Shown one piece after another: positions 7,745-47,215 of a stretch of DNA of 64,000 nt. The stretch comes from Juglans regia (lineage: Eukaryota > Streptophyta > Magnoliopsida > Fagales > Juglandaceae): contig NC_049916.1 in the NCBI RefSeq assembly GCF_001411555.2, positions 3,844,001 through 3,908,000 of the forward strand, in the 5' to 3' direction. The notes beneath the pieces were generated by a model. It ran no database searches and was not told where the DNA came from. It worked only from the letters and a program-made list of their open reading frames with translations. The position numbers were made by a program, and so were the translations under genes. The first letter of the stretch is position 1. Each line of letters begins with the position of its first letter.

Positions 7745-9148
7745 TTGGCTAGTAGATTTACCTTTTTTTATCGAGAAGATCCAGATTTACAAAAGCTGAT
7801 TTCGACGTATGAAAGTAAGGTACTTGATGACTCTAAGTATCATATGAAAAATGGTTTGTTGTTTTACAAGAATCGATTATACATTGCCAATGATCCTAGT
7901 CTACAGGAGCTGATCCTCAATTTAGTCCGTAGTAGCCCTCAAGCAGCCATTCTGGACTCCATAAAACTCTTCATAGGGCTTGGGCGAGTTTTTATTGAAA
8001 AGGGTTGAAGAAGAATGTGAAGTATGTTTGTGTAATAAAACTGAAAATATCAAGCCAACAAGTATGCTCCAACCTTTACCCATTCCCAATAAGGCGTGGT
8101 CTGATATTTCTATGGATTTTATAAAAGAGCTAATCCCTTCCCATGGGTTTACTATTGTTTTGGTCGCGGTGGATCGCCTAAGTAAGTATGCACACTTCAT
8201 TCATGTTGCGCATCCTTACACAACAACTAAGATAGCTCAGATTTTCATTGCAAGGATTTTTAAATTACATGGTATGCCTAGCTCTATTGTCAATGACAAT
8301 GATCCAACATTTACAAGTTTGTTTTGGAAGAAACTGTTCAAATTACATGGCATAGAACTTAAGTTTAGTACAACATATCATCCTCAAACAGATGGTCAAA
8401 CTGAAATTATGAATAAATGTGTGGAGCATTACTTAAGATAGGAGATAAACCTAGAGAATGGTCAAGGTCGATTTCAAAGGCAAAATGGTGGTATAATAAG
8501 AATTTGCATACTTCTACAAAAATTACTCCATTTGAAGCAGATTATGCGTACCCACCTCCACCATTGTTGTCGCATTCTCCTGGTACAACTGTTGTCCAAG
8601 TTGTTGAAGACACTCTGAGATCTCGATATCAAATCCTTCGAATTTTGCGAGAGAATCTACAAGATGCAAAGGAAAGGATGAAACAGTTTGCGAATTTACG
8701 ATGTACGAAAATGAGTTTTGAAGTTGGAGATTTAGTTTACCTTCAGCTCTAGACGTATAAACAATATTTCTTTGTTTGTCGAAGAAATCTGAAACCTTTG
8801 CCCAAGTTTTTTGGTCCCTACAAGATCCTGGAGTGGATTGGTAGCGTTGCCTACCAATTGGAGCTTCCTTCTGTTGCGCGCATTCATCTGTTATTTCATG
8901 TTTTGTTCTTGAAGAAGAAGTTAGGAAATCAGAATGTGCAAATATCGACCATACCTTCGGATGCTGAAGATGGTGGGTTACGAGCTGCACCGGAAGAGAT
9001 CTTGGAGAGGCGCATGAAGAAGAAAGGGTACAGAGTTATGATTGAGCTTCTAGTCAAATGTTAGGGATTAGGGATTGAAGATGCTTAGTGGGTCACATAT
9101 CGAGAGTTGTCTAAGGATTTTCCTGACCTTGTGGGCAAGGTCTTCTGA
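7745..9148 (+). mobile_element. Ty3/gypsy retrotransposon, integrase-to-chromodomain remnant
   Basis: The plus-strand frames give, in order, the RNase H/integrase connection (FYREDPDLQKL), the integrase zinc-finger end (CEVCLCNK), and the integrase core with all three acidic positions visible (SMDF; VNDNDPTF; TDGQTEIMNK). After a frameshift near 8440 come the integrase C-terminal region (FEVGDLVYLQL), a TAG at 8750, and a chromodomain-like tail (FFGPYKILEWIGSVAYQLE). Gag, protease and reverse transcriptase are missing to the left, where the tandem repeat lies. The remnant is inactive. Confidence 0.9.
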
Positions 9149-10012: not shown

Positions 10013-12735
10013 CTTATCTTTGCATTGTCGATTTGGACATATTTCTGACTCTAGACTGCATGATTTAGCTCCTGATATTTCTTGTTCTACAAATACAAAT
10101 AATACTCATTGTGATGTTTGTCCACTTACTAAACAGAAAAGACTTCATTTTCCTTTAAGTTCTACTACTAGTTCTATTTTTGAACTAATTCATTGTGATA
10201 TCTGGAGACATTTTTTAGTCACTTCATATGATGGTTTTAGGTTTTTTGTTACCATTGTAGATGATTACAGTCGATGTACTTGGATATATTTGCTTAAATC
10301 CAAGTTTGAAACACGTTCATATTTGCAATCTTTTTTTAACTCTTGTGGAGACTCAATTTAATTGTAAAATCAAATCTATCCATACTGATAATGGTTTGGA
10401 ATTTGATATGAAAAGTCTTTTTGCTAGTAAAGGGGTTATACATCAATATAGTTGTGTATACACTCCTCAACAAAATGTTATTGTTGAAAGAAAACCAACA
10501 TATTCTTAATGTTGCTAGATCTCTTCATTTTCAATTAAATATTTCTTTACAATTTTGGAATGACTGTTTCATCATTGTTGTTTACCTTATTAACAGAATA
10601 CCTACACCTGTTTTAAATAACAAATCACCATATGAAGTACTTTCTTATATCAAACCCCCGTATAATCACCTTAAAACTTTGGTTGCCTTTGTTATACTTC
10701 CTCACTTGGTAATTCTTTATCCACCAAGTTCTCTGCTCGAGCTCAAGTTTGTGTCTTTCTTGGATATCCTACTGGTATCAAAGGCTACAAACTATATAAT
10801 CTCCATTCTCATAAAATTCTCATTTCTAGAGATGTCATATTTCATGAACATCTTTTTCCATTTAAACCAGATTCTCCATATCATCACCTGTCTTTGGAAA
10901 AACAGAATCCTCCTACTTCTTCATTGGATCCTATTTTACCAATCCCCCTTTCAGATGTTGCTCTTTCATCTACAGTAACATCTGGATCTCTCAATCCTCC
11001 TACTTCTTCTGCTTCCACTCAAAATACATCACCACCAGTTCCTATCAGAAACTATACAAGAAATAGAAAGGCACATGATTACTTGCAGTATTATCATTGT
11101 TCATTGATCTCAAATATAAAAGTTAATACATCTCCTCTGGTTGATGGTTCTTCTTCATCAGGTACTCCTTATCCTATTTCTTCATATTTGTCATATTTCA
11201 AATTTTCACCCACCTATAAACACTTTTGTGATTCTGTTGATTCACTTTATGAACCCAAATTCTTTTACCAATCCATTTCATATCCTCATTGGAGGGATGC
11301 AATAGCACCTGAGATCACTGCTCTTGAAACTAATAAAACTTGGATCCTAACTGAGTTACCTCTTGGCAATCAATCAATTGGTTGTAAATGAGTTTGCAAG
11401 TGCAAGTTGAAATCTTATGGCACTTTGGAAATGCAAAGAGATATACACAACGAGAATGTATTGATTATTTTAATACTTTCTCTTTAGTTGCCAAATTGAC
11501 CATTGTTCGTTGTTTTCTTGCCTTAGCTGCTATTCATAATTGGGAATTGCATCAATTGTATGTCAATAATACATTTCTTCATGGCAATTTGGATGAAGAG
11601 GTGTATATAAAGCTTCCTCCTAGTTTTTCTAAATATGGAGACACTTGGGTTTGTAAATTGCTCAAGTCCTCATATGGCTTGAAACAAGCATCTAGATAAT
11701 GGTTCTCTAAATTCTCATCCACACTGATTGCTTATAGTTTTACTCAATTAAAGTCTGATTATTCATTGTTTGCCAAGTGTTTTGGTGACTCTTTTATGGC
11801 CTTGTTGGTTTATGTGGATGATATTGTCATTGCTTCTAACCATTCTCAGTTTGTTCTTGATCTCAAGCACTTTCTCAATTTGCATTTCAAGTTAAAAGAT
11901 CTTGGTACTTTGAAATATTTTTTGGGCCTAGAAGTTGCACGATCTGCTAAGGACATATCTCTTTCTCAAAGAAAGCATGCACTTGAAATTGTTTATGACT
12001 TTGGTTTATTAGCTGCTAAACCTGCTAGCAGTCCAATGGATTAGAATTTAAGACTATCCAAAATTGATTATGGAGGTTATTTACTTATGATTCAACTTCT
12101 TATAGAAGATTAATTGATTGTCTTCATTATTTGACTCTTACTAGGCCTGACTTCTTTTTTTCTGTTGCAACATTGAGTCAATTTATGGATCTGCCTCGTC
12201 AATCACATTATGATGTAGCAATCCGAGTTGAGTGATACATCAAAGCTACTACAGGACAAAGCTTATTCTTCCCCAACAACTCCTCCTTGCAACTTAGAGG
12301 ATTTTGTGACTCTGATTGGGCCACCTATCCATATTCTAGACGGTCAGTTGCTGGTTTTTATCTTTTTTTTTTAGATTCTTTAATCTCCTGTAAATCCAAA
12401 AAGCAAGTCACTGTTTTTAGATCATCTGTAGAGGCTGAGTATCAGCTACTATCTCTTTCCATGATTTTGGAATTTCTTTTTCTTTAGTACCAGTTCTCTA
12501 CTATGACAGCCAAGCAACACTCCACATTGCAGCTAATCCAGTCTTTCATGAAAAAATTAAGCACATTGAAATAGACTGCCATATAGTTAGAGATATGGTT
12601 CAAAATAATGATCTTGTAACTCTTTGTGTTTATTCTGAACATCAGTTAGGAGATTTCTTTACTAAACCTTTAGTTTCAAATAGATATTTTAGTCTTCTTC
12701 GCAAGTTAAGTATTATTAATCTTCACATTCCAGCT
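10013..12735 (+). mobile_element. Ty1/copia retrotransposon, 5'-truncated and decayed
   Basis: The plus strand reads through the pre-integrase zinc motif (HCRFGHISDSRL ... CDVCPLTKQK), the integrase start (HCDIW, FVTIVDDYSRCTWIYLL, HTDNGLEF), and reverse transcriptase ([12 protein letters not shown], then the catalytic LVYVDDIVIAS). It continues through RNase H (FCDSDWATYPYSRRS, SSVEAEY) to a typical copia end (LGDFFTKPL ... INLHIPA, stop at 12736). At least five frameshifts or stops break it, and gag and protease are absent, so it begins abruptly near 10013. Confidence 0.92.
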
Positions 12736-25100: not shown

Positions 25101-28100
25101 CAGAAGAATCTCCTATCACATAATACATACTTTCATCCCACTTTCCGAAGAGAGTTGCCACCGTTTTTCCATTCCTGTCTTGAACCACACCATGTACCTG
25201 AAAAACAACCATGTTTATATAATCCAATTATACTCCCAACTCCTGATAACATTTCAAGTAGGTAAAAACACCAAACCACAGGATGGAACTCAAATTTACA
25301 TCACCCAATAACATTCTAAAATGCCGCATAAGAAGTCTGCTGAATGAGAGTTAGATGGAATCCAGTTTATCGGTCATTTAGTTATTTCCCACAAGTGAGA
25401 AAAATTATTATCTTTAGTAATAATTTCTCTTTTGTTCATACTAATAATACAGAACACCTACACAAAAATGAGATGCTCGGCTTGTATCCTCAAAATATGT
25501 AAGCCTGGATGATATTTCTCTTCTTTTCAGCAGTCAGAACACACATTTTACGACAGCAAGCAAAATAAACAGGCAAGATTACAAAATGACAATTCAAGTC
25601 CTTGAATAGGTAGCCTCATAAGATGCAGAAAGGGTGTAGGCTTGTAATGAACCTGGATATTCTCGACTGTGTTGTAATAAAGAAATGGTTTAGAAATGGA
25701 AGATAGTTGCTATGATGAAATAACTTATTGCACATAAGATGTTTGATAAAATGACAAAGAGGGTCACACTAAGAAAGAATGATAAAATGGCTATGCCTTG
25801 AGGTATTCGAGGTCCCCAATTCCTCCCAAAAGAAATAACAAACTGTTTCAAAGATAATTTCCAGATTTCAGATCCCCCTCCCACAAGTACTCCTCAGAAC
25901 ATATACTCGGAGCCAACACCTCTAATTGACTCTAACCAAAGTAAGGCCATGGACTGATTTCCTTCTCTACTAACTAAGCCCACGGGCCACTAACAAATTA
26001 ACAACTCAAATACAATAAAATGGTAACAACTAATTTGGACGCCCATCAAGTTCAGCCCAACTTAATTGGGTTCATTACATTATCCACCCCTTCAAAGAAC
26101 CTTGTCCTCAAGGTTGAAATATTGATGCAACTTTATAGTATTGGTTCCAGTTTAGCCTTTCATACTCAGCTTGCTCTTCTCCACCCCTTGCCAACAGCTA
26201 CCCTTGTCCTCATTGCCATGGAGGGTCATAACATCCTCCCCCCTCAAAAGAACCTTGTCCTCAAGGTTAATAGCAACGACACAATTGTCACCCTCACTCC
26301 AAGATAAGAATATTGAAAGGTATTGAATAGTATAGAACAATATAGAGTATAGAGTATAATTTTGAACATACGGCAGGGCAATGCCACAATTTGCCAAATT
26401 CTTCGTACGAGCATCTGATGGAACAACAATTTTATTTATTTTTTTTTTTTAGGACAGGAGTCATGCTGCAAGAGCTGAATGGCTCTACAGAGCTGCACCC
26501 CCTCTTGGGGTTCCACGAATAAATCCTCCCCATGCATTACATCCGATGAAAGAAGATCTTGGACCACTTGATGGCTCGGTTTAATACCAGATTGCACTAT
26601 AAACAATAACGGAGAGCCCCCACCCAATCCATCGATATTGTACTTAAGGGAAAGGCTACTCTGACATTTAGCTTTATCAAGGATAAGAGCAAGCATCAAA
26701 AATCTCTTCAATATAACATTCCCAAGAGTTTCATAGTAAGCAGGTCTATATGGGCCTTCTACCATCTTGTCATAGGCATAAGCCTGTGCAAGACCCGCAT
26801 GTGAGAAAAAGTGCATTGGGCAACAAGGAATTGCCACCAAACACAATAAACAGTACTCACAAATCTCTCTACTGATCCTAGAAAAATTTCCATCATCCCA
26901 TGGACTTCCTCTATCAAAAGGTGCACAAAAAAAACTTAAGGGGAAAAATATCAAACAATTGGGGGGTAAATACCAATGGATTGCCATGCTTCATGCTTTC
27001 CTCTATGTAAGTTGCAGCAGGCTTCGAATGTTTTTCATTGGTCCCAGTGATAATAATATCCCAAAAAGCAGACCACCATTCAAAAAGAAACCCATCAGGA
27101 GCATCCATTACTACAGGGTCCAATGCAACCTTCCAAACATTTACACCTCGCAATTTAGCAGCCAACTCTTTCAAATATTTCACTTCCTCCATAAGTTTGA
27201 AAGGAGTAGACTCTATTGGAAGAGGCTTTACAGGATTGACATTCGCAATATCTTTATCCACAAAATCCAAAACAAAAAGATTTTCCAGGGAATGAATAAA
27301 CCTCTGACCATCCTCACTCCTCTGCAACCAAACGTGCTCCAATGGCTAGTTTGAATTGTTCACCATAATACTAAACTCCTCTTGCGGCCTCCGTATCGAC
27401 GGTATATGAAAAGGCACCTTAGATTTCGGATTTATTTTCCCTCCTCTATCAATTGGCTTAAACACCACTTTAAGTGGCAATATATCAAACAGATAATGAA
27501 CAAAACGTTTCTTACCGATTTGTAATATTGAAGGTACAGCCCATAGCCATGGCACTTGCCCAAACATGGGTATTTCAACGGGTCTAGTACACAATAAGAC
27601 CAATGTGGCAGCAACCATAAGCTTGTCAGCTACTGGATCTAGAAATGCACCAAATGCCAATCCTAGCATCATCTTCCGAACAAGATAGCCCTCAAGCCAA
27701 TCACTAATATGATTGAGTATAGGGTCCAGAAAAATGAGATAGCATTCTAGTATCCCTTCTTCAAAGGCTAAAGGATCTAAGATTCCCCACAATGATTTGA
27801 TTCCATTCAATCCACCGAGATACACATTGTAGCAGGTCCTGACTACATGCACCAAGGAATCGCCCCGGATCAAGACTCCGGGGAATCGAATGGCGGAAAG
27901 CAAAACACGGAGCACACCCAGCTCAATGGCTTCCTCTCCGAGACCAACCAACCTGCAAAAGCCGTCAATCATCTTGTAAACAAAGGATGTGTTGTTGCTA
28001 CTGGGACTTGGGCGGTCAATCTCGGTGCAAATGAGGTTGAGGGAGAATAAGTTGAAGGTGCAATCGAGGACGGGCTCGACGACCTTGGCGTAGGTGGAAT

Positions 28101-31100
28101 CGAGGGCCAGAATGAGGGGTTGGAGGAGGGAATCAGCATGGGAGGAGGAGTAGAGATAATAAAAATAGACCCCACCAGGATCAAACTCCCATCTGGTGCC
28201 GCGATCCATCCTGATGGTTGGGCCTTCTTCTGTCATTGTATGGTTACTGCAAAGTATGACTGACGAAAATGAAGGAAAGAGGAAGTACTTTCTGAGAGGA
28301 AATGAAGGGAAAGACAATCAGAGATGGAAATCCGAGATTTTAGAATTTAATTTTGGGTTTGGATTTTTAAGAACGGATGGAGTGATTTCTTTGGGATCAG
28401 TCTCTGTTGGCATCGCTACATTTCTCTCCCTCGCTGGTGCCTTTTCTATTCTTTCTTCCACGATTTCATCTACATTCGTCGTTCCATTTTTTTCCTGCAC
28501 TATCTATTTTTGTGAATCTTCGATTGAAGCCGTAGCTCCCTTTTCAACTCCCTCCTCTGCAGCTTGGTCTTCCCAAACCAAGAAGGATTCCTCGACTTAT
28601 TGCTTGTAAACCTTGTAATTTGCGTGCATTCGATCAAGTAATTCTGTGATGTGCAACATTTTTTCAAGAGCTTTTTCCATCAATGGCAGCAAATTTACTG
28701 GCTGGTTGTTAAAGGTTATTCCGTCCATGGAAGAATCGGTGGCTCTAGATACCAATTGTAATGAACCCGGATATTCTCAACTGTGTTGTAATAAAGAAAT
28801 GGTTTAGAAATGGAAGATAGTTGCTATGATGAAATAACTGATTGCACATAAGATGTTTGATAAAATGACAAAGAGGGTCACACTAAGAAAGAATGATAAA
28901 ATGGTTATGCCTTGAGGTATTCGAGGTCCCCAATTCCTCCCAAAAGAAATAACAAACTGTTTCAAAGATAATTTCCAGATTTCAGATCCCCCTCCCACAA
29001 GTACTCCTCAGTACATATACTCAGAGCCAACACCTCTAATTGACTCTAACCGAAGTAAGGCCATGGACTGATTTCCTTCTCTACTAACTAAGCCCACGGG
29101 CCACTAACAAATTAACAACTCAAATACAATAAAATGGTAACAACTAATTTGGAGCCCCATCAAGTTCGGCACAACTTAATTGGGTTCATTGCAAGGCTCC
29201 ACCTTAGACAACCTACTCCCTCAAAGCAAGAAGCAATAACCATATCTAATTTCAGAAAACTAGGCCTATGGCCGTTGCATAGACAAATACTTTGTTTTGA
29301 ATAAGATGTATTAGACTGTGCTGCTAACTTTTTCCTTTATTTACCAATCAAAAAAACTTTTTCCCTTATTTACTTTATTTTTTAAATTTATTGCCTTCTT
29401 AAATTCGTACTTTTCTATTTAAAGTATAAAAATTCCAATATACTCTACAAGTGCCACACTAAGTAATTACACTGATATTAGTAACAGAACTATTATGCCA
29501 TAGATGTTAGATAATGCTAATACAAAGTTTCTGATGACAAAATTGTGCATACAGTTTCCTCTCCTCAGCCAAATCAAACAAAGTATATTTTACAAACCAC
29601 ACTTCTCTTTCATTAGCCATGATGCAAAAATAATTTGCAATAATGACAAAGGAACATAGACAATCATCATTATTTCTTATGCAACAGACCTAGATATTTA
29701 TATCTATGAAATTTTGAGACTTAGAGAGCACCTGGTGAGGATTTCGGTCAATGATCGACTGCTCCTTGAATTTCAGCTTACATGAATAATCATAATTTCC
29801 TTGTATGCGCATTGTACCATAGTGATCGCAATACAGCTTTCCCAAAATGAGATTGTATATTGATGTTGTGACCTGACAGAAGAGAGCCCGTTTCAAACTG
29901 GAACTGAACATGGAAAGAAGATCACATGAACCATTGGAGAAATACCTTACTCCACTGAAACACTTCCCCATCATCAAATTCCAAAGTCAAAATACCAACG
30001 GGATCAAGTTGAATTGATCGCCCCCAAAATTTGCTCTTTAAATTGCTATCCCCCCAGAATTTCCATCCCGTTCCCTCACAGTGACATGCAACAATCACAG
30101 GGTGATGACTGACCTGACACCAAAAGTGAAAGTAACTTGGCAAAATTTATTCCCAATATCAAAAGAAGCTTCAAAGCAAGCCCAAAAGAGCAATTGTACA
30201 CATGAAAGGTATGGTCTTTTCGAAATCACCTATGAGGGAACATGGGATTTTTCTATGAATTTCAGACACTTGTATAGAATAATTTCTCATGCCCTGAAAA
30301 CTTAATAATTTAATGCCAAATTCTCCAAAAGAGGAGTTGCTAACTTAGTACAATTATGACCATATATATCACCATTGGGTAAAGTCCCATATTACAAATT
30401 TAAGTTAGAGGCTCCTCCCTATTTTGGGAAGAAATCATATGAGGGTAAGCTAGTTCAACAGCTTTTAACTACATCAGTAAGCATTATAATGAAATTTTTG
30501 GACAAGTTACACTTTATCACTCTAAACTACCATTTCATTCTCAAACATTACCAAACTATAACTAGTTAAAACTCATCCCATAAATCTAGTGGCTTCATAT
30601 CTCAACTACTTAAATAAAAAACCATTTAAAATGCGACATATCCATTGATGTGACTGGGGATGACAATGTTCAGATGAAGAACTAGTAGCTTGGGGGATAA
30701 AATGTAATTTTGTTAAAAAAAACCATATTGCATCCCCCCTCACCCAAAAAATAGAAGAACAATATATTTCCAATGAAAAAATTATGTTCTTGATTCATTC
30801 CATCACCCACTTGTGTCATTAAATTTACAATTGCAAGGTTAAATTTAAATTTTGTTTTTTAACATCTTAAAACTTAGTGAAAATCTCTAGAATCATGCTT
30901 AGGTGCCACTAAAATTTAGACGAACTAATGTACACCATAGTCTCGATTTTTAAAATATTTGAGAAAAACAAATTATAAAATGGAAAGACCAAATTGGTAA
31001 TGTATTCGAAGTGTCAAAATAGAAAATGATACCTTCTCTGAGAAAAAGTGGAGGCCTTTATCTGGATAATCAGCCTCGTAGGTTTCTCCTAATAATGGAT

Positions 31101-31835: not shown

Positions 31836-34800
31836 CATTTGAAACCACAAGTTACAAGATACTCAATAGATATGAGTTCCATGATAAAAATCTAAAAGCA
31901 ATCACTTATTGGAGGCAAACTAAAATCATGATTTACGAGAATACCCTATAATCTAGAGTAGCCTTTTTTGTTTGGAGTGCCGCCCTTGAGAAGATATTGA
32001 CCACGGATAACTTGAGAAAGAAAGGATGTGTAGTCATGGAGTGGTGCTACATGTGTAGAAAGAATGGTGAATCGGTGAACCATCTCTTACTACATTGTGA
32101 GGTAGCAAGGGCATTGTGGGCTGAGATTTTTCAAAGGGTTGATTTAGCTTGGGTTATGCCGAGAGTGGTGGACCTGTTGGGTTGTTGGAGGAAGATGCAA
32201 GGTTGTCATCAAGTGGCAATGGTATGGAAGATGATTCCGTCGTGCATCATGTGGTGTATTTGGACGGAAAGGAATGCGCGCTGCTTTGAAGATAAGGAAC
32301 GCACACTGGCCGAGTTGAAGAAATATTTGTTCCACACATTATTGTCTTGGCTTTCCGCCATTGTATTACAGGGGGGCAATGTTCATGATTTTTTGTCTTT
32401 AATCTATCGCACGTAGAATGTAATTAGGTGTTCTATTGTATACTTCCTGTGTACATGGGCTATACTTACTTCACTCATATATATAATATTGATCTTTTAC
32501 TTATCAAAAAAAAAGAATACCCTATAAGCATATAAGCATTTCAGTAATCCAGGAATGACAGAAATATGAAGATAAATACGCAAACATTTTTTTAGAATGA
32601 AAAAACAGCATCAAGTTCTTACTTGCATACGTACCCTTTTCCCCCACTCATGTGCTCGATCAATGAGATATGAATATTCCAAATCCTCAAAACATTTTTG
32701 CAGGGAAGAGAGAGGCTCATTGAAGTAAACGGGAAGACATATTTTTGTGAGATCCTTTCCAATGTTATCTTTAATCATTGACCAAAGACTAACAGCCTTC
32801 TCTTTTTCAACAGGGTCAGGCAATTTCTTACGTCGCTTAACATGTGGATAGTTAGTTCCAACAGATCTAATGGAAGGGTCAACATCATCTTCAGGTTCAA
32901 TTGCAATACCACCATCATCAGAAGAGAAAGATGATACCCGCAAATCAGACCCATTACTTTTGAATGAGCTGGATGACAGAAAGTCACGAGTGTCAAAAAA
33001 TGTATTTTCTTCATCATCTGTTTCTTCCTCTGCAGCATCAGCCCTTTCATTATCATCTTCAGATTCACTAGGACTTCCTTCTTCTGAGAAACAGAAATTT
33101 AACATTAAAATTACTAAATAAGAATAAATCAAGAGAGAGAACTTGAAAAGATAATAAGAGGAGAAAAACACCCAAAACCATTGGTACAACTAACCATTTT
33201 CAAAAAAGATTTAATCCAAATAAGAATAACAACAAACTAAGGCCATATACAAGAAATGTGATCATTTAAGGATTCAGGTTACTGAAAAAGGAAAAAAAAT
33301 TCGGATTAGCAAAACCCTAAATAAATTATTCAAATTTTTTAGGTCACAACAATCACAACTACAGAAGCTTGAACCGCAATATTTGGGCACCAACTCTGCA
33401 CTTCGGGACAAAAAGGGGTGGTGTTATAAGTATAAAGTCAACTGCACATTCATAGTTATAATGTTTTAGGTATACAACAACTAAAACCAAGGTAATGTTC
33501 TCAAATCCAATTTGATTTATGATCCGTACTCATCCTAACCCACATAGGCGAGTAATCATTCAGTGATGGGTTGCAATGGCAAACACATTAGATTCCTCTA
33601 GTATAATAGTATTGTTCTTTATGGCAAACTAGACAAATCCAAATAAAAAATCATGGACTGTCCAGGAAGAGGCAGGTATTCGTTAACATAATTGGGATTA
33701 TATTAGCTAATCCAGTGGAAGGCAAGCAAATTAATTTCTGACATCAATAATAAAGAGCTGCAAGATTATGACACATCTCATCACCTTTTAAAACAATAGA
33801 GAGATGCCCTTCTCATGCATTTACAATTATCAGATCATCCAACTCATATTGACTTTAAATCTAATACGTGCTAATGAACAGATTATAGCATACCATCTTA
33901 CCATTGAATTTGTCTTGCCTTAATCTAGAAGAAGCCCCTTGATCATTGCACTGTCTTTGGCTCTCATCAACCACCGTATTCTCCAGATCAACTTTTTCTG
34001 TCTACATAATACAGTATAAAAGCAATTTCTTAGCAGGACACAAAATAATTTAAGAATTTACCCTGTGCCAGAAGGTAAATTTTCATTTGATGGGACACTC
34101 AGACCCAATAAATACCTTATCCAAACACAAAACAGGCTTCGAGAAATAAATGTCAAGAAATCATAACTCACTTGTACGTGATATTATTTTTGTACTAGAA
34201 GACTACACTTTACGAAGTAAATTGTCTACAGACAGAGTCACAGAAGAACATTTCAGTCTTTGAGTGGTAAACTTATGGTCAACCTGCCACTAACCAGAAC
34301 TTAGCTTGCAAATCATTACACCAGAAAAATACACTGAATGTCATAAATCACCCAGCAAGTACGACAAATGTGAAGTGTTAAGATGCAGGATAAGCCTGAA
34401 AAAAAAGAAGAAGATGCTAAGATGAAGAAAATGGGAAAGCAGAAGAATGTGGGGTGGTTAAGGACTTGCATAACTACGTAGAGCATCCTGATATAGAATC
34501 ACCCACTTCCACCCTTCACTTAAACCATAAACCACAAATGCCAGAAATCTATCGTTAATATACAAAATTGAAGTTTAATTAATACTTGTGCATCCAAGAC
34601 TAGCAAAGTTAAAGAACGTAGTCTATTTGCTTTGCAGTAAAACATGGTAGTATCACTATGCATGCATGCAACATTCAACCTACCAATTTGCCCTCTCCTA
34701 GGAATTCCACTTTATGGGAATGACACAAATCTTTAGGAAGAAAATTCAAAACATGAGATTATCTAAAGTTAATTACCGCTAAAACAACTAGGGCGATGAT

Positions 34801-37161
34801 TACCTTCACCAACAAATCACAACAACCATTAACTAGAAAACAACCGTTAATTACATCCACTGCTACCAAATGATTATGCTGCTACAAACTTCTAATTATT
34901 TCCCTCGCAACGCTGAGCTAGAAAACTACTATATTTGTTGATGGTCTCTATGCCTCAACAAAAACTTATGGCCACGCAAAGATTAACTAAAGTCAAATCT
35001 TTTTGTGGAGATTATGCTCTGGGTATAAATGAGGAGGACTCTACTGTTACCTTTTTAACATCATTTCAGCAAACTAGAATAAAAACACTAACCTGCTTAC
35101 AAGAAAACTGAAAATCTATGGGAATCACTGGCTATATCATTTCCAACATGAACTTCCAAAAAAGATATTCATATTCGCCCACAGGTTATAGAACGGAAAG
35201 ATGTTAAATTACACAATGAAACGGAATTTATTTTGTAATCCCATGATCTGATGACCTCAGCATAAGCCCTTAATTAAAACAGAATTCACACATTACCTAA
35301 CCTCAAAATTAACACTAAAATCAATTTAAAAATTAGAAGAATCATTACCTCTCAAAAAGTTAGAAGAATTTTTAATAAAAACTAAAATTATTTCAACATA
35401 GATATACAGGTGTTCAAAAAAACCCGTCCCCTCGGTACTCTATACAGAACGATCACAGTTTTAAAAAAAATGGAAAATTACAACTCTATCAATAGTTACA
35501 AATGAAAAGAACGATCCCAAACACACAGCCTCCTAGCAATTTATTCAAGAGGTTGAGGCATAGAGTTATATGCAATAGAAGAAGGAGAGACCGAAAAAGA
35601 ATTCTGAATTCGACTGCCGCGAAGTTTTTCAGATTTCATTACATGTACCTCTAGTTGCCGCAACGTGTCAATAAGGAGACACTGCTTCTGCTTTAGCAGC
35701 ACTAGTTGGCTCTGCAGCACCGCAAACTCGCTCCTCATGATTTGCTCGCTGTCCTGGATGGCTGCCTCTCCAACACCCTCTTCCAAAAGCCGCTGTCTCA
35801 GCTTCTCGGTTGACATAGTGAAATTATCTATGGGAGCCATCAGCTCGCTGTTCGACATACGTGGGAACATGTCCTTCACAGCTTGCAATGCCTCCATCCA
35901 CGCTTCTCGATCTTCACGCATCTCAGCCCTTAGATGGAGCTTCTTTGTGCCAGTGAAAATCGAGAATCTTTTGTCATCTGATTTGCTTTCACGAATTGAG
36001 GAAACCTGCAACATACCAACAAAATGAATAAAAAAAAATCATACACGGACAGAAAGACCTGAGGAAGATTAGTAATTAGGGGGTTAGAATTAAAGATCCT
36101 TCATATTAATCCAATGCAAACTTAGAGCATAAAATCAATATAATATTATAAATATCAACACAAGAAAATTTGCGAGTGATGCTAGATCGACACGGATAAA
36201 CTTAAAAAGCAAGGATAATTATAGTTGTAAATACGCAAATATCGTAGAATTATTTTTAAAAAGAGTAAAATTTTTTATTAAAAAGTTAATTTTTTTTTTT
36301 ATATAAATTTCATGTTTATTTATTTTTTTAAAATAATTATACGATACAGTAATTATCATTTTTCAAACATAAATTAATAAATAAAAATAAAAACCATTAT
36401 TTATAATAATGAAAACGAATATTTACGTGAAATAAAAATAAAATGAAATGATTTTAAATAAAAATTAAAAATAATATTATATTATTTAAAAATTTAAAAA
36501 AATAATGAGAATTTAAAAAATAATAAAATAGATGATATGAAATCGTTTTTATTATATACTCGACCAAATAGAGAATAATTCACATCACGTGGTTACTCTC
36601 CAAGATTTTAGAGAAAAATAATAATTAGTAATTACTCTGGTTGACCAAGACCTTGAGATGAATTTCGCCGAAGGGTTTGCGGGGAAGTTGTTGCTGCAAA
36701 TGCGAGGTTCCATTATGGTACCTCGAAATCCTTCGTATAGACTCCTCGCCGATGACCTTCGATCCTTTCTCGGTGTCTCGATTCACCACGATCCTATCGG
36801 GTCCATGAATCTTATAGTACGATAAAACGCCGTCCTGCAAGACGAACCACCGCGGCCTCCATCCTTTCCCGTAATTCACCCACTTGTAAAGTATCCCCGA
36901 GACGCCGTTCCCCACTATATCATTGATCTTCACGTCCACCGGCTGCTCCCTTGCGGAGTGAGACACCGTCGCCGGCGAGGCCGTCGTTCGCGGCTTGGTC
37001 AATATCCTTCCGCAATCCCCGTTATTGTCGCCGTGGATTTGTTTGTTTCCGGTTCGGGCACTATAATCGTATCTTGCCGACGTGGCCTCGGGGAGAGGCG
37101 GTATGTGGTGGAGCGCCTGGGATTGCTCGGACATGGTGAACAGGCAGCAGAAGGGATGCAT
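22145..37161 (-). CDS. ORP1: oxysterol-binding protein-related protein, ORP1 clade
   Basis: Ten coding exons, minus strand: 37161-36652, 36005-35649, 34001-33902, 33083-32635, 31188-31033, 30113-29946, 29872-29732, 25197-24967, 24645-24532, 22312-22145. They give 797 codons, the usual length for plant ORP1 proteins (about 800), and all junctions are GT-AG and phase-consistent. A PH domain spans about 77-215 ([26 protein letters not shown]), then a coiled coil ([17 protein letters not shown]), an acidic Ser/Glu/Asp-rich linker, and the lipid-binding domain from about 410. The domain carries [13 protein letters not shown] at the exon 4/5 join and the family signature as EKVSHHP (HH at 527-528); other ORPs usually read EQVSHHPP. 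The C-terminal helix is [15 protein letters not shown]. ORPs move sterols or phosphoinositides between membranes, and the PH domain selects the target membrane. Introns are enlarged by insertions described separately. Confidence 0.96.
22716..23469. mobile_element. long-arm foldback MITE in ORP1 intron 9, split by a hAT element
   Basis: Arms 22743-22797 and 22842-22897 are inverted copies of about 55 bp differing at one or two positions (core gatatgttatgttatatc). They leave a loop of about 44 bp. Outer ends agcca-caaagagatt / aatctctttatgg continue the inverted match and extend across the later hAT insertion to about 23469. Related copies lie at 6603 and 14501. The structure is a hairpin that could give double-stranded RNA when transcribed with the gene. 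Confidence 0.75.
22921..23454. mobile_element. non-autonomous hAT element, 534 bp
   Basis: The ends are TAGGGGTG and CACCCCTA, exact inverted repeats of 8 bp. The 8 bp outside both ends are identical (ctttatgg at 22913-22920 and 23455-23462), the target duplication length of hAT transposons. The interior has two G/C-rich blocks (cagcgggggcccacacc; gggggcagggttg) around an AT-rich centre, and no transposase. It is inserted in the right arm of the foldback MITE. Confidence 0.92.
23470..24531. other. ORP1 intron 9 remainder
   Basis: No gene seen. The phrases catggatatgacttcgc (near 23959) and catggatatgaattcgcc (near 24115), and gttaattatgtaatta (near 24085 and 24455), recur within the stretch. 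This suggests an old local duplication. An open frame at 23327-23611 is not recognisable. Confidence 0.4.
25643..26079 (-). repeat. 3' LTR of the gene-capturing retrotransposon
   Basis: It is 437 bp and matches 28757-29193 throughout. Differences seen by eye include gaacctgg/gaacccgg, tctcgact/tctcaact, aacttatt/aactgatt and atggctat/atggttat. Confidence 0.93.
26436..26987 (-). pseudogene. unidentified, probably captured coding segment
   Basis: The minus-strand frame contains protein-like text ([36 protein letters not shown]) that I cannot assign to a family. It is shifted relative to the upstream captured block. A phrase [10 protein letters not shown] before it echoes [11 protein letters not shown] in the upstream frame at about 27470-27500, so part may be the element's own or an internally duplicated sequence. 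It ends in a lysine run just before 26436. Confidence 0.4.
27001..27132 (-). pseudogene. captured fragment of a LEUNIG-type corepressor (LUFS domain)
   Basis: The minus strand encodes [17 protein letters not shown] followed by [14 protein letters not shown]. This matches the second half of the LUFS/LisH region of plant LEUNIG and LEUNIG_HOMOLOG proteins, where a Gly-Phe-Leu-Phe-Glu-Trp-Trp block precedes a Thr-Asn-Glu-Lys-His-Ser motif. In the parent family this region recruits SEUSS-type partners for transcriptional repression. The WD40 part is absent. It is joined in frame to the RRP6-like fragment just upstream with only a few codons between. Confidence 0.88.
27139..27447 (-). pseudogene. 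captured fragment of an RRP6-like exosome exoribonuclease
   Basis: The minus-strand frame reads [15 protein letters not shown], then after a TAG at 27346-27348 [33 protein letters not shown] and [17 protein letters not shown]. These match the segment immediately before the DEDD nuclease domain of plant RRP6-like proteins, which trim RNA with the nuclear exosome. The catalytic domain itself is missing. The stop replaces a position that is Gln in the family. Apart from that codon the frame is open on both sides. Confidence 0.9.
27526..27729 (-). pseudogene. captured fragment of phosphatidylglycerophosphate synthase
   Basis: The frame contains [22 protein letters not shown] and [10 protein letters not shown], then FGQVPWLW. 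This is the CDP-alcohol phosphatidyltransferase signature as found in plant PGP synthase (CDP-diacylglycerol plus glycerol-3-phosphate to PGP, for plastid and mitochondrial phosphatidylglycerol). Of the four signature Asp residues, the first, third and fourth are present and the second is Glu. The following Ala before Arg is Val. Only about 68 residues of the enzyme are present. Confidence 0.88.
27799..28149 (-). pseudogene. captured fragment of a BIG-type ARF guanine-nucleotide exchange factor
   Basis: About 117 codons match the N-terminal DCB region of plant BIG proteins (Sec7-family ARF-GEFs acting at the trans-Golgi and endosomes). The text includes [46 protein letters not shown] and [13 protein letters not shown]. 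The Sec7 catalytic domain is absent. In the host gene this region would be expected to span introns; here it is continuous, which implies capture from spliced RNA. The match stops at LGGLNG. A stretch of unassigned sequence (27730-27798) then links it in frame to the PGP synthase fragment. Confidence 0.88.
28150..28756 (-). other. 5' internal region of the retrotransposon
   Basis: From the primer site inward, the minus strand opens with [18 protein letters not shown], stops after about 45 codons, and continues with Glu-rich text ([18 protein letters not shown] at 28420-28480). I could not assign this to gag or to a host gene. A possible start for the fused frame is at 28317, or at the MDRGTRWEF Met at 28199. 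Confidence 0.5.
28757..29193 (-). repeat. 5' LTR of the gene-capturing retrotransposon
   Basis: It is 437 bp, with the same termini as the LTR at 25643-26079, and is followed on its outer side by the AGGCT target duplication. Confidence 0.93.
31794..31833. repeat. (GA)n microsatellite in an ORP1 intron
   Basis: An uninterrupted run of about 20 GA units in the intron between coding exons 4 and 5. Confidence 0.95.
31952..32513 (+). mobile_element. 5'-truncated LINE tail in ORP1 intron 4
   Basis: The plus strand encodes the zinc-finger RT tail of an L1-type LINE ([53 protein letters not shown]). A short 3' region and an A-run follow at 32506-32513. A 14-bp direct repeat (agaataccctataa at 31938-31951 and 32514-32527) flanks it, the expected LINE target duplication. 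It is antisense to the host gene. The LINE tail at 58197-58477 belongs to the same family. Confidence 0.93.
34002..35648. other. ORP1 intron 2
   Basis: 1.65 kb of AT-rich intron with no recognisable gene or repeat boundary. If it were retained, the reading frame from exon 2 would run to a stop at 35541. Confidence 0.6.
36006..36651. repeat. ORP1 intron 1 with AT-rich dispersed repeat
   Basis: The segment at about 36210-36370 (attatttttaaaaagagt ... aattatacgatacagtaatt) resembles stretches near 38600-38760, 41785-41925 and 42865-43030. That makes it a diverged dispersed family with no visible gene. Confidence 0.4.
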
Positions 37162-37660
37162 AAGGAAATGAATTAATACAAAAGACCGGTCCGATCGCCG
37201 ACTCGGAGCACGTTCTTCACGGTAGATATGAGACTAATGAGAGTCTCCATGGTTTCTCTCTATTTGCTTGGTCAACGAAATGGCCAGATATGAATGACAA
37301 TTGGCAAGGAAACGGAGGTTTTCCAAGGGGGAATAGGATAACGCGGTTATCGCTTCAGGTATTTGAAGAAAAATGTTGAATCAGTAGTGGAGGTAGCCGG
37401 GTAGAGAAGAAAGAGTCCGGCGAGTTGAGATGGTGGCAGGACAGGTAAAGAATGCACAAGTTGAGTTGGGGAAGTTGGGACTGCACGGATTTTAAATACG
37501 AAGAAGATAGCTGCAGTTGGTTTTTTTTTTAAAAAAAAAAAGAAAACAGATGTGGTTGGTTTTAGAGTTTATGATTGGGTGCGTATTTAACACTACAGTG
37601 TTCTGTTGTCCTGCCGCGTGGACGACTGCGCGTGTATGTGCCGCGTTACCCTTCGGGTGA
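37162..37660 (-). promoter_or_regulatory. ORP1 upstream region with three CGCG boxes
   Basis: About 450-490 bp before the start codon, 37613-37653 holds three CGCG words (ccgcgt, gcgcgt, ccgcgt) within 40 bp of otherwise AT-rich DNA. The vCGCGb form is the known binding site of calmodulin-binding CAMTA factors. The function here is inferred. No TATA box was convincingly placed. Confidence 0.35.
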
Positions 37661-44989: not shown

Positions 44990-47215
44990 CCTTAATATTC
45001 TCCCGCAATTCAAGCGTTACATGGGCAAGTGTGAGGCTTGATCGTAATTAAAGAAATTTGAGTTGTCGAGAGGGGCTTGGTTAAAATGTCAGCCAGTTGT
45101 TCTTTGCTTGATATAAAGGAGACTTGTAGTGTCTTGACAGCAACTCGTTCATGAACAAAGTGGTAGTCTAATTCCACATGTTTGGTACGAGCATGAAGAA
45201 CAGGGTTAACAGCCACATAAGTAGCTCTTAAATTATCACACCTCAAAATAGGTGAGTCGGTCAAAAAAATGTCTAATTCTTTTAACAATGATTTAAGCGA
45301 GCTATGGTTGCTTGTTTCTTAGGCCCCCATGAAATTAGATGAGAGCCAAAATAGATACAGAAGCCTCATGTGGACTTGTGGTCATTAGGGCATCCAGTCA
45401 GCATCAGAGAATGCAGAGAGTTAAAGGTTGAAGAAGCAAGAAAAATAAAAATAAACCCAATGCTATGTGTTTTGAAGGTATATGAGAATTTGCTTAACAG
45501 TATGCCAGTGGGACTGGCGAGGACAAGGCATGTATTGATAGACCTTGTTTACGGCAAATGATATATCAGGATAGGTGAATGACAAGTATTGAAGACTCCC
45601 TACTACACTTTGGTATAGTTCGGGGTCTTCAAACTTATGTCCATCAAGAGCAGAAAGCCGAACAGAGGTGGCCATAGGGGTTGAAACAGATTTGGCCTTA
45701 TGCATGTTAGTATGTAATAGAATATTAGCGATGCATTTTGACTGAGATAGAAAAAAATCGAAGGACATACGATATACTTCGACCCTTATGAAGTAATGTA
45801 ACAGACCCAAATCTTTGACTGGAAAATACAAACTTAAAGAAGCTATAAAATCAGAGATAACAATAAAGCTTGAACCAGTGGCAATTATGTCATCAACATA
45901 TATCAATAGATAAATGCAATCAGAGTGAGTAATCAGAATAAACACAGAACTATCATAACGAGAACCTTGAAATCCTAAATCAAGCAATTTCTCTGTAAGG
46001 TTTGCAAACCAGGCCCGAGGGGCCTGTTTTAATCCATAAATGAATTTTCTTAACTTACACACATGGTTCAGATGATCAGGATGGAGGAATCCAAGCAATT
46101 GTTTTATGAAAACAGCTTCCTCAAGGTCTCTATGGAGGAATGCGTTCTACACATCTAGTTGGTGAAGTGGCCACTGTTTGGAGACTGCAAAAGAAATAAG
46201 GAGTTGGACAATTACAGGTTTGATAACTGGATTGAAGGTTTCAGAAAAATCTACCTCAGGCTGCTGATGGAAGCCCTTGGCCACAAGCTATGCTTTACGA
46301 CGTTCTCACCTTACACTTGAAACCCAATATATTAGGATTAGAGGAAGGGGGGACAAGTTCCCAAGTCTGATTTTGAATCAAGGCTTGAAACTCAATTTGC
46401 ATAACATACCTCCACTCGAGATATTTTGAAGCTTCAGAGAATGAGGTGGGTTCTTTAGGGATGACACTCGAAGATGAAATAAAGGTAGTTATGGTGGAGG
46501 TGAATGGTCAAAGTGGAGGCCAAGGTATTGTACCACCGATGCACTTTTTTGGATAGTGTATGTGAACCCTTGACGGAGTAATCATGGGATGAAGGGGAGG
46601 CTGAGCAGAAGGTGGAGAAGATGAGGATAGTTCTGGCAGTGAGGAGGAAGGAGTGAGAGTAGAGCTATGGTTTGGGAGGTATGGAGAAATGGCGCTAGAT
46701 GGAGGGGAGTTAGGGTTCTAAGGTGAGGACAGGTCAGTTACACATTTTCGACCGAATATCAACCTTATGATGATTAAAAGACCTTATATTAGACCAACAT
46801 GATAACCCAAAGACACGAAGAAAATGATAATCGGGAGATCGACCCATCAAGATTTCATATGGTGATTTGTGGTTAAGGATCAGAGTGGGCATTCGGTCAA
46901 TGAGGAAAGTGGAGGTTTGGAAAGTGTTGGTCCAATATTTTTGGAGCATGGATGCATGGGAGAGAAGGGAAAGGTTCGTTTCTACAATATGGCGGTGATG
47001 CCTCTCAACACTTCCATATTGTTAATGGGACTAGAGGCAAGTGACCCTATAGATGATGCCATATTTTTTAAAAATATTTCAAAGTAGTCGGAATTCTCCA
47101 CCCCAATCCGTTTGGAATGAAATAACATTTCGAGAAAAGATATTCTTAACATATTGGAGAAATGCCACGATGATTGAGGACACATTGGATTTGGATTGAC
47201 ATATATCATAACAAA
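44990..47215 (-). mobile_element. Ty1/copia retrotransposon, decayed, minus strand
   Basis: From the right on the minus strand come integrase pieces (GVENSDYFEIF, LIDRMPTLILNHKSPYEIL), reverse transcriptase (FIYGLKQAPRAWF, IYVDDIIATGSS, KDLGLLHYFIRVEVY), and RNase H to the end (ILRCDNLRATYVA, KHVELDYHFVHERV, QLADILTKPL). One 211-codon RT frame (45463-46098) is still open and keeps the YVDD catalytic motif. Frameshifts and stops lie between the blocks, and gag and the pre-integrase part are missing past 47215. AT-rich DNA at 44800-44990 may be LTR remnant. Confidence 0.92.

Follow-up and report, generated by a model that had tools for sequence, protein, structure and literature searches.

We analysed a window of 64,000 nucleotides (nt) of the genome of the walnut Juglans regia (NC_049916.1, positions 3,844,001 to 3,908,000; C16:3844001-3908000 in our notation, where C numbers are contigs), which contains a complete long terminal repeat (LTR) retrotransposon at window positions 25643-29193, on the minus strand. 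It is very probably a non-autonomous walnut element with an interior patchwork of cDNA fragments of at least five host genes, built up by capture of mRNAs and by recombination between sibling elements. The element has LTRs, a target site duplication (TSD) and a primer binding site (PBS)-like stretch at its ends, and it carries pieces from five kinds of donor, three of which have lost introns. It has siblings elsewhere in the genome, and its modules occur in other combinations in other elements.

Structure of the element

The element is 3551 nt long, with an interior of 2677 nt. Its two LTRs, of 437 nt each, are identical at 425 of 437 sites, the 12 differences being seven transitions and five transversions, and the 5-bp TSD AGGCT flanks it on both sides. 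The PBS-like stretch directly inside the 5' LTR is presumably of the tRNA-iMet type, with one extra T; G-rich tracts lie ahead of the 3' LTR. An initial annotation, made from the sequence alone, had described an LTR element with equal 437-bp LTRs, the AGGCT duplication, a PBS and a polypurine tract, and the presence of all of these confirms it as an LTR retrotransposon. Its terminal features, in element order, are the following.

29194..29198, no strand: TSD AGGCT, right copy (read from the sequence)
28757..29193, minus strand: 5' LTR (from the LTR comparison)
28741..28754, minus strand: PBS-like TGGTATCTAGAGCC; the pattern TGGTATC-N(0-1)-AGAG occurs in 6 of 12 LTR-paired relatives
28438..28756, minus strand: family leader, ATG at 28728; resembles a gag start only in its position and matched nothing in Pfam
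26240..26268, minus strand: upstream pol-tail-like NLEDKV with G-rich tract (read from the sequence)
26080..26115, minus strand: downstream pol-tail-like NLEDKV with the polypurine tract adjoining the 3' LTR (tract copy at 26087-26115; read from the sequence)
25643..26079, minus strand: 3' LTR, 425/437 identical to the 5' LTR
25638..25642, no strand: TSD AGGCT, left copy (read from the sequence)

No gag or pol domain was matched by Pfam in the open reading frames (ORFs) and pieces scanned, where the gag-pol with reverse transcriptase (RT) and integrase of an autonomous Ty3/gypsy element was thus not seen; six leader, linker and tail pieces matched none of the Pfam families, and neither an ORF nor the PBS pattern gave a match in viral contigs. 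Terminal-repeat retrotransposons in miniature (TRIMs) have very short LTRs and interiors; with LTRs of 437 nt and a total of 3551 nt, the element is not one of them. The Jukes-Cantor distance between its LTRs, 0.028, would, under assumed rates of 1.3e-8 and 2.5e-9 per site per year, correspond to ages of about 1.1 and 5.6 million years, respectively.

The NLEDKV tail may be a gypsy relic. Elsewhere in the window, a Ty3-type integrase core fragment (7977-8438, plus strand; rve, 1.1e-9) is followed along its frame by DFPDLVGKVF and a WGRD stretch, similar but not equal to this tail.

Host-gene pieces in the interior

The interior carries pieces of a BIG ARF-GEF gene (BIG), a PGP synthase gene (PGPS), an RRP6-like gene (RRP6L), a LUFS-domain gene and an ASPM homologue, arranged as follows (L numbers are walnut loci, P numbers matched proteins).

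27349..28236, minus strand: ORF of 296 aa from an ATG, ending in TAG, with BIG, PGPS and the start of RRP6L
27799..28149, minus strand: BIG ARF-GEF piece (DCB domain); PF16213, 6.9e-12; gene at C16:23213580, 86%, in one block
27702..27805, minus strand: linker 1; the same sequence lies about 475 nt past BIG in L033/L034
27517..27702, minus strand: PGPS piece; PF01066, 1e-8; donor C7:49705468-49706834; common to L045
27437..27516, minus strand: recurring core, copy 1; at least 40 genome places
27138..27429, minus strand: RRP6L piece, two exons joined; donor C3:24470421-24477262
27001..27134, minus strand: LUFS-domain piece; SSBP2 in the PDB, E=0.0011; common to L014, L054, L056 and L057
26850..26964, minus strand: recurring core, copy 2; common to LUFS-type and ASPM-type relatives
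26365..26847, minus strand: ASPM piece, the fifth donor; P0121/P0122; donor C3:8464093-8465050

The ORF at 27346-28317 contains both the DCB (PF16213, 6.9e-12) and the CDP-OH_P_transf (PF01066, 1e-8) domains. A protein search with this ORF, in which 7998 candidates were scored, returned BIG relatives at up to 70% and pecan PGPS at 84% identity, and every match covered at most 44% of the query, all among the best 120 of 7200 matches. The ORF at 26914-27345 gave 9 RRP6-like matches (61 and 63% identity to P0152 and P0153), and its LUFS stretch, searched alone, matched SSBP2 chains (E=0.0011). We take the fold of this stretch to be LUFS and its donor to be LEUNIG. From the ORF at 26436-26990 came 31 ASPM-like matches, P0121 at 58% over 65% of the query and P0122 at 88% over 46%. 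The BIG, PGPS, ASPM and RRP6L matches all run in the element sense. The genome search covered the window's own assembly (571,269,259 bases), and the interior gave at least 59 DNA matches in it (best 40 of 219 candidates).

The initial annotation had named four of these pieces, all in the element sense, and they lie in that sense at or near the places it gave; it lacked the ASPM piece, the second polypurine and pol-tail-like copy and the relatives in the genome. Its call of a LEUNIG LUFS domain holds as far as the SSBP2 match goes, the name LEUNIG being presumptive. The BIG, PGPS, RRP6L and ASPM donors were located in the genome; the LUFS donor was not identified among the genome matches of the LUFS piece, and no LEUNIG gene was located.

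Donor introns are precisely missing

Two introns of the PGPS donor are precisely absent from the element, at CGGAAG/GTATAC...AATCAG/ATGATG and GACAAG/GTACGG...ATGCAG/CTTATG (slashes mark the splice sites). The protein matches had suggested that the PGPS piece is exactly one exon, which was rejected, since the gene has two introns within it. For RRP6L, the donor blocks C3:24470421-24470575 (93%) and C3:24477114-24477262 (95%) are joined in the element, with precise loss of an intron of about 6.5 kb (TTG/GTTAGT...TTTTTACAG/GAAAATC). From ASPM an intron of 106 nt is absent (CCAAG/GTAATT...AAATCAG/ATTTTC, joint CCAAG/AT), the matched blocks overlapping by two bases. The BIG piece forms a single exon block in its gene, so that it allows no intron test.

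The ASPM piece shows a second loss, of 323 donor bases from GGGGAGG/GTAAAC to GTTACAG/ATTTATT (L043 1897-2219, joint at window position 26525). It runs from GT to AG, is exitron-like and includes exon sequence that is retained in the C12 relative L035. Thus, either an uncommon splice form was captured by the window element, or splicing acted later on the element's own RNA. A 50-51-nt exonic ASPM deletion is common to the window element and L035, so one capture probably served both. In the same piece an A-rich stretch (26432-26456) lies where the donor has an exon end and intron, and past it the frame is again that of the leader and BIG.

Protein comparisons point the same way. Among the ASPM relatives, 29 of 31 read G and then unrelated residues where the element continues, as expected of an intron (one of these, P0146, resumes the exon later), and the other two read like the element. 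Among the nine RRP6L relatives, five carry other residues as far as the Q that directly precedes EKLSV (or a variant of it), which is what an intron end would give, two read through like the element and two are uninformative.

Introns precisely missing in three donors (PGPS, RRP6L and ASPM) indicate that the cargo passed through spliced RNA; for these three the element carries host exons without introns in its own sense, the pattern of Bs1-type capture. Capture from spliced transcripts, as initially suggested, thus stands at base level for three of five donors, and serial capture by one element probably does not account for the mosaic in full. The comparison with donor introns covered the window element, L035 (ASPM) and L045 (PGPS).

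Siblings and relatives in the walnut genome

A sibling copy at C3:6454690-6457325 has its own TSD (AAATC) and LTRs that are 99.3% identical. It carries the leader, BIG, PGPS and RRP6L and then the tail, being without LUFS and ASPM, and it is 96% identical to the window element over interior positions 1-1625 and 94% over 2455-2677. A second sibling, at C5:14590746-14592915, has LUFS and ASPM and is 96% identical over 512-2677; it was rejected as a full copy because it is 5'-truncated. C19114 was counted as an assembly duplicate of C5 on the strength of 1500 identical flanking bases. The LTR of the C3 copy (555 nt) starts just past the upstream polypurine tract and that of the window element (437 nt) past the downstream one; the duplicated pol-tail-like stretch would be explained by the use of alternative polypurine tracts. 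The LTRs of these two copies match at 343 of 390 aligned sites, a lower agreement than between their interiors, so LTR and interior may have different histories.

More distant relatives share a similar leader, LTR ends and tail. The search for other copies of the LTR, which the initial annotation had recommended, returned at least 43 genome matches (best 40 of 173 candidates); the leader was found at at least 40 places, partial ones included (best 40 of 61 candidates), and the core of about 80 nt at at least 40 (best 40 of 42 candidates). The LTR, leader and core counts include the window element, its siblings and partial matches, and most places are known from the match only. LTR-like direct repeats 2-9 kb apart are present in 11 of 20 fetched stretches (L009-L018, L025), and L056 makes 12. 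Perfect 5-bp TSDs flank L012 (CGGGG) and L013 (AGGGG), as they do the C3 copy, and are unclear or unreadable in the others. L033, L035, L036, L038, L045, L053 and similar loci were assigned by leader, core or tail only.

Different relatives carry different cargo. A Pfam scan of 30 hand-chosen sense-strand ORFs from 17 relatives found a non-retroelement domain above cut-off in 13 of the 17. The domains, several of which we presume to be importin, FtsH, CDPK and KCS sequences, are these.

L011, L025: Arm
L012, L013: Peptidase_M41
L016: WD40
L018: DEAD
L056: Pkinase with EF-hands
L045: FAE1_CUT1 and CDP-OH_P_transf
L036: DNA_pol_B
L038: CG-1
L033: SEN1_N
L010: MFS_1
L053: PRP8 domain IV

L015 is below the cut-off, yet it is 91% identical to L010. 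L014, L017 and L035 likewise have no domain above it; by DNA, L014 holds the LUFS module and L035 the ASPM module.

Modules of the window element in other settings

Most of the window interior recurs in other members: positions 1-319 in L036, L038 and L056 (1-249 in L053), 172-600 in L018, 383-960 and 952-1055 in L033, 1055-1315 in L045, 1623-1852 in L014 (to 1831 in L056), 1793-2232 and 2232-2523 in L035, and 2411-2677 in L015 and L010. The modules stand there in other company: BIG with the linker in L033 and L034, PGPS with the core in L045, LUFS with the core in L014 and L056, and the core with ASPM in L035. The 169 alignments between the 20 interiors compared (E<=1e-8) all have the same orientation, partly by construction, as the members were oriented by LTR, leader and tail. 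By DNA or peptide the core is present in 11 of the 17 Pfam-scanned relatives (L010, L011, L014, L015, L017, L025, L035, L036, L045, L053 and L056). It was not found at the ASPM and BIG gene loci (L043, L040, L049), where one weak peptide match occurs (L049, E=0.6).

In several members a module is longer or has different neighbours. The PGPS piece of L045 extends upstream by a further exon and most of a second one, and this member also carries the FAE1_CUT1 domain; in L033, BIG and linker 1, blocks that overlap by 9 nt at their joint in the window element, are separated by about 475 nt; L035 keeps the ASPM exon sequence; and in L056 LUFS is followed by a kinase with EF-hands in one ORF. These forms suggest that the window element arose by recombination among members of this kind and was not the source from which they derive.

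Origin of the mosaic

We propose that template switching inside the virus-like particle would have brought host mRNA sequence into element cDNA, and that later switching between co-packaged sibling RNAs would have combined the cargo of several members in the window element, short shared stretches such as the recurring core perhaps helping the switch. As its modules are found in other members and other settings, sibling recombination probably assembled most of the mosaic. An unseen autonomous element would have supplied the enzymes; since no autonomous partner was found, we infer mobilisation in trans.

Several points weigh against this account. The autonomous partner with the same LTR that the initial annotation had anticipated did not turn up when 26 loci were scanned with regular expressions for RT, RNase H, integrase and gag motifs, although such a scan can only weakly indicate absence. 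In L026, two YxDD matches (plus strand) lie on either side of the LTR-like stretch and share its orientation, this locus having no LTR pair in the stretch examined; the motifs may be copia- and LINE-like. The RRP6L part (about 1316-1622) was seen in no member except C3, C5 and C19114, intron loss of other members' cargo is known for L035 and L045 only, and the core was not found in L012, L013, L016, L018, L033 and L038, some of these stretches being incomplete. The direction of module transfer and the role of the core are likewise conjectural.

In the same scan, the 12 LTR-paired relatives (L009-L018, L025, L056) showed no element-sense RT, RNase H, integrase or gag motif. On the strand opposite to the element, L017 gave one weak NRD..F match and L018 gave YVDD and FIDD matches, those of L018 being read as a putative nested copia insertion; an integrase-like match in L022 runs against the direction of its LTR-like stretch.

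The family may go further still. We suggest, only tentatively, that it exchanges cassettes, host mRNA pieces lying beside an element-own core and being traded there by homology-guided template switching, so that cargo would accumulate combinatorially, somewhat like a retroelement counterpart of the integron.

Alternatively, one ancestral element could have taken all five genes serially, the other members being decay products that lost modules. Loss does happen, as the C3 copy without LUFS and ASPM, with its 5-nt block overlap at the internal deletion, demonstrates. The scheme is nevertheless unlikely, given the longer PGPS with FAE1_CUT1 in L045, the ASPM exon sequence kept in L035 and absent from the window element, the 475-nt spacing in L033 and the LUFS-kinase ORF of L056.

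It is less likely again that selection maintains the fused ORF as a new gene of the element or host, as proposed for Bs1. A single frame does take in the leader ATG, BIG, PGPS, RRP6L, LUFS, the start and end of ASPM and the pol-tail-like motif, the main ASPM part being in another; it is open for 563 aa in the C3 copy, from the leader ATG through the cargo into the tail, where the window copy has four stops. Nei-Gojobori dN/dS is 0.49 between the window and C3 copies and 0.46 between the window and C5 copies; against this, it is 1.77 for C3 and C5, on 7 changes. Purifying selection, as the value of 0.49 might indicate, was not upheld: the window and C3 copies differ at 65 sites in the open stretch (22 synonymous, 39 replacement, 4 stop), and with substitution types kept there is no synonymous excess between them (22 seen, 20.8 expected, P=0.43). 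Near-invariant positions are changed in the PGPS (3/37), ASPM (5/41) and BIG (4/36) pieces, a level of change reached by 0/86, 0/31 and 1/34 relatives, respectively; for RRP6L, 2/20 are changed, a level reached by 3/9 relatives.

We consider it very improbable that a DNA transposon, a Helitron or Pack-MULE, gathered the pieces and that an LTR element then took up its spliced read-through transcript in a single event. Such elements collect genes (PMC13317346), and this route would also remove introns. However, the modules adjoin the family leader, core or tail in several relatives, in sets that differ by member, though no search aimed at Helitron or MULE ends was made. The window element itself has LTR ends, and it lacks the donor introns, genes captured by Pack-MULEs being described as containing introns. 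Finally, an ordinary pseudogene cluster or assembly artefact between two LTRs, which the stops and frameshifts of the window copy might have suggested and which the initial annotation had named as its own refutation, is contradicted by the same chimera at C3 and C5 (96% identity), with a separate TSD (AAATC) and LTRs 99.3% identical at C3, and can be practically dismissed.

Surroundings of the element

A few kb from the element lies an oxysterol-binding-protein-like gene (32614-37233, minus strand), with exons encoding Oxysterol_BP and PH domains. The window also holds retroelement fragments at 10675-11388 (plus strand) and 45466-46146 (minus strand) (SH3_retrovirus 2.6e-20, RVT_2 9.8e-30), and a zf-RVT fragment (2e-13) at 31952-32413 (plus strand), presumably LINE-type.

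Relation to known elements

Our claim to novelty is modest. As multi-gene, intron-free LTR elements have been published, calling the element by itself a previously undescribed system, as was initially done, is too strong; the new part is the shuffling of cargo across a family. The maize LTR element Bs1 has, according to a 2026 review, three transduced host genes and a chimeric gene (PMC13317346) and is described as carrying exons only (PMC4717578); the window element resembles it in both respects, with five donors against three, more than Bs1 as had been anticipated, and with relatives that carry other sets. The soybean TRIM GmaRetroS15 has both LTRs, a 5-bp TSD and three gene fragments of exons without introns (PMC4717578). 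The gene-bearing soybean TRIMs measure 1,172-1,449 bp, against 3551 nt here, and the section on them describes neither a recurring core nor module sharing, unlike the walnut family; it also states that genes captured by Pack-MULEs contain introns (PMC4717578).

Gene capture by LTR elements has been surveyed at genome scale in rice and sorghum (Jiang and Ramachandran 2013, PMC3726574), where the sections consulted do not treat multi-gene mosaics and the word intron is absent from the main text. In maize, 20 LTR elements with gene fragments were reported in 22 Mb (PMC2773423), and a review of additional ORFs finds transduced sequences mostly in the gag-pol sense (PMC7264820). Template switching between unrelated RNAs gives the Veju and BARE-2 chimeras (PMC13317346), which, as described there, exchange element or unknown sequences, whereas in the walnut family host cargo would be exchanged. 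Among the titles listed in the literature searched, which did not cover walnut-specific work, none dealt with the shuffling of cargo among family members around a common core.

The case for exon shuffling by retrotransposons has mostly been made from isolated examples. The walnut genome holds donors, siblings and apparent recombinants together, a natural series of intermediates for the building of a multi-gene chimera, in which the RNA step is directly visible at the precise splice joints and the order of capture, recombination and loss becomes testable.

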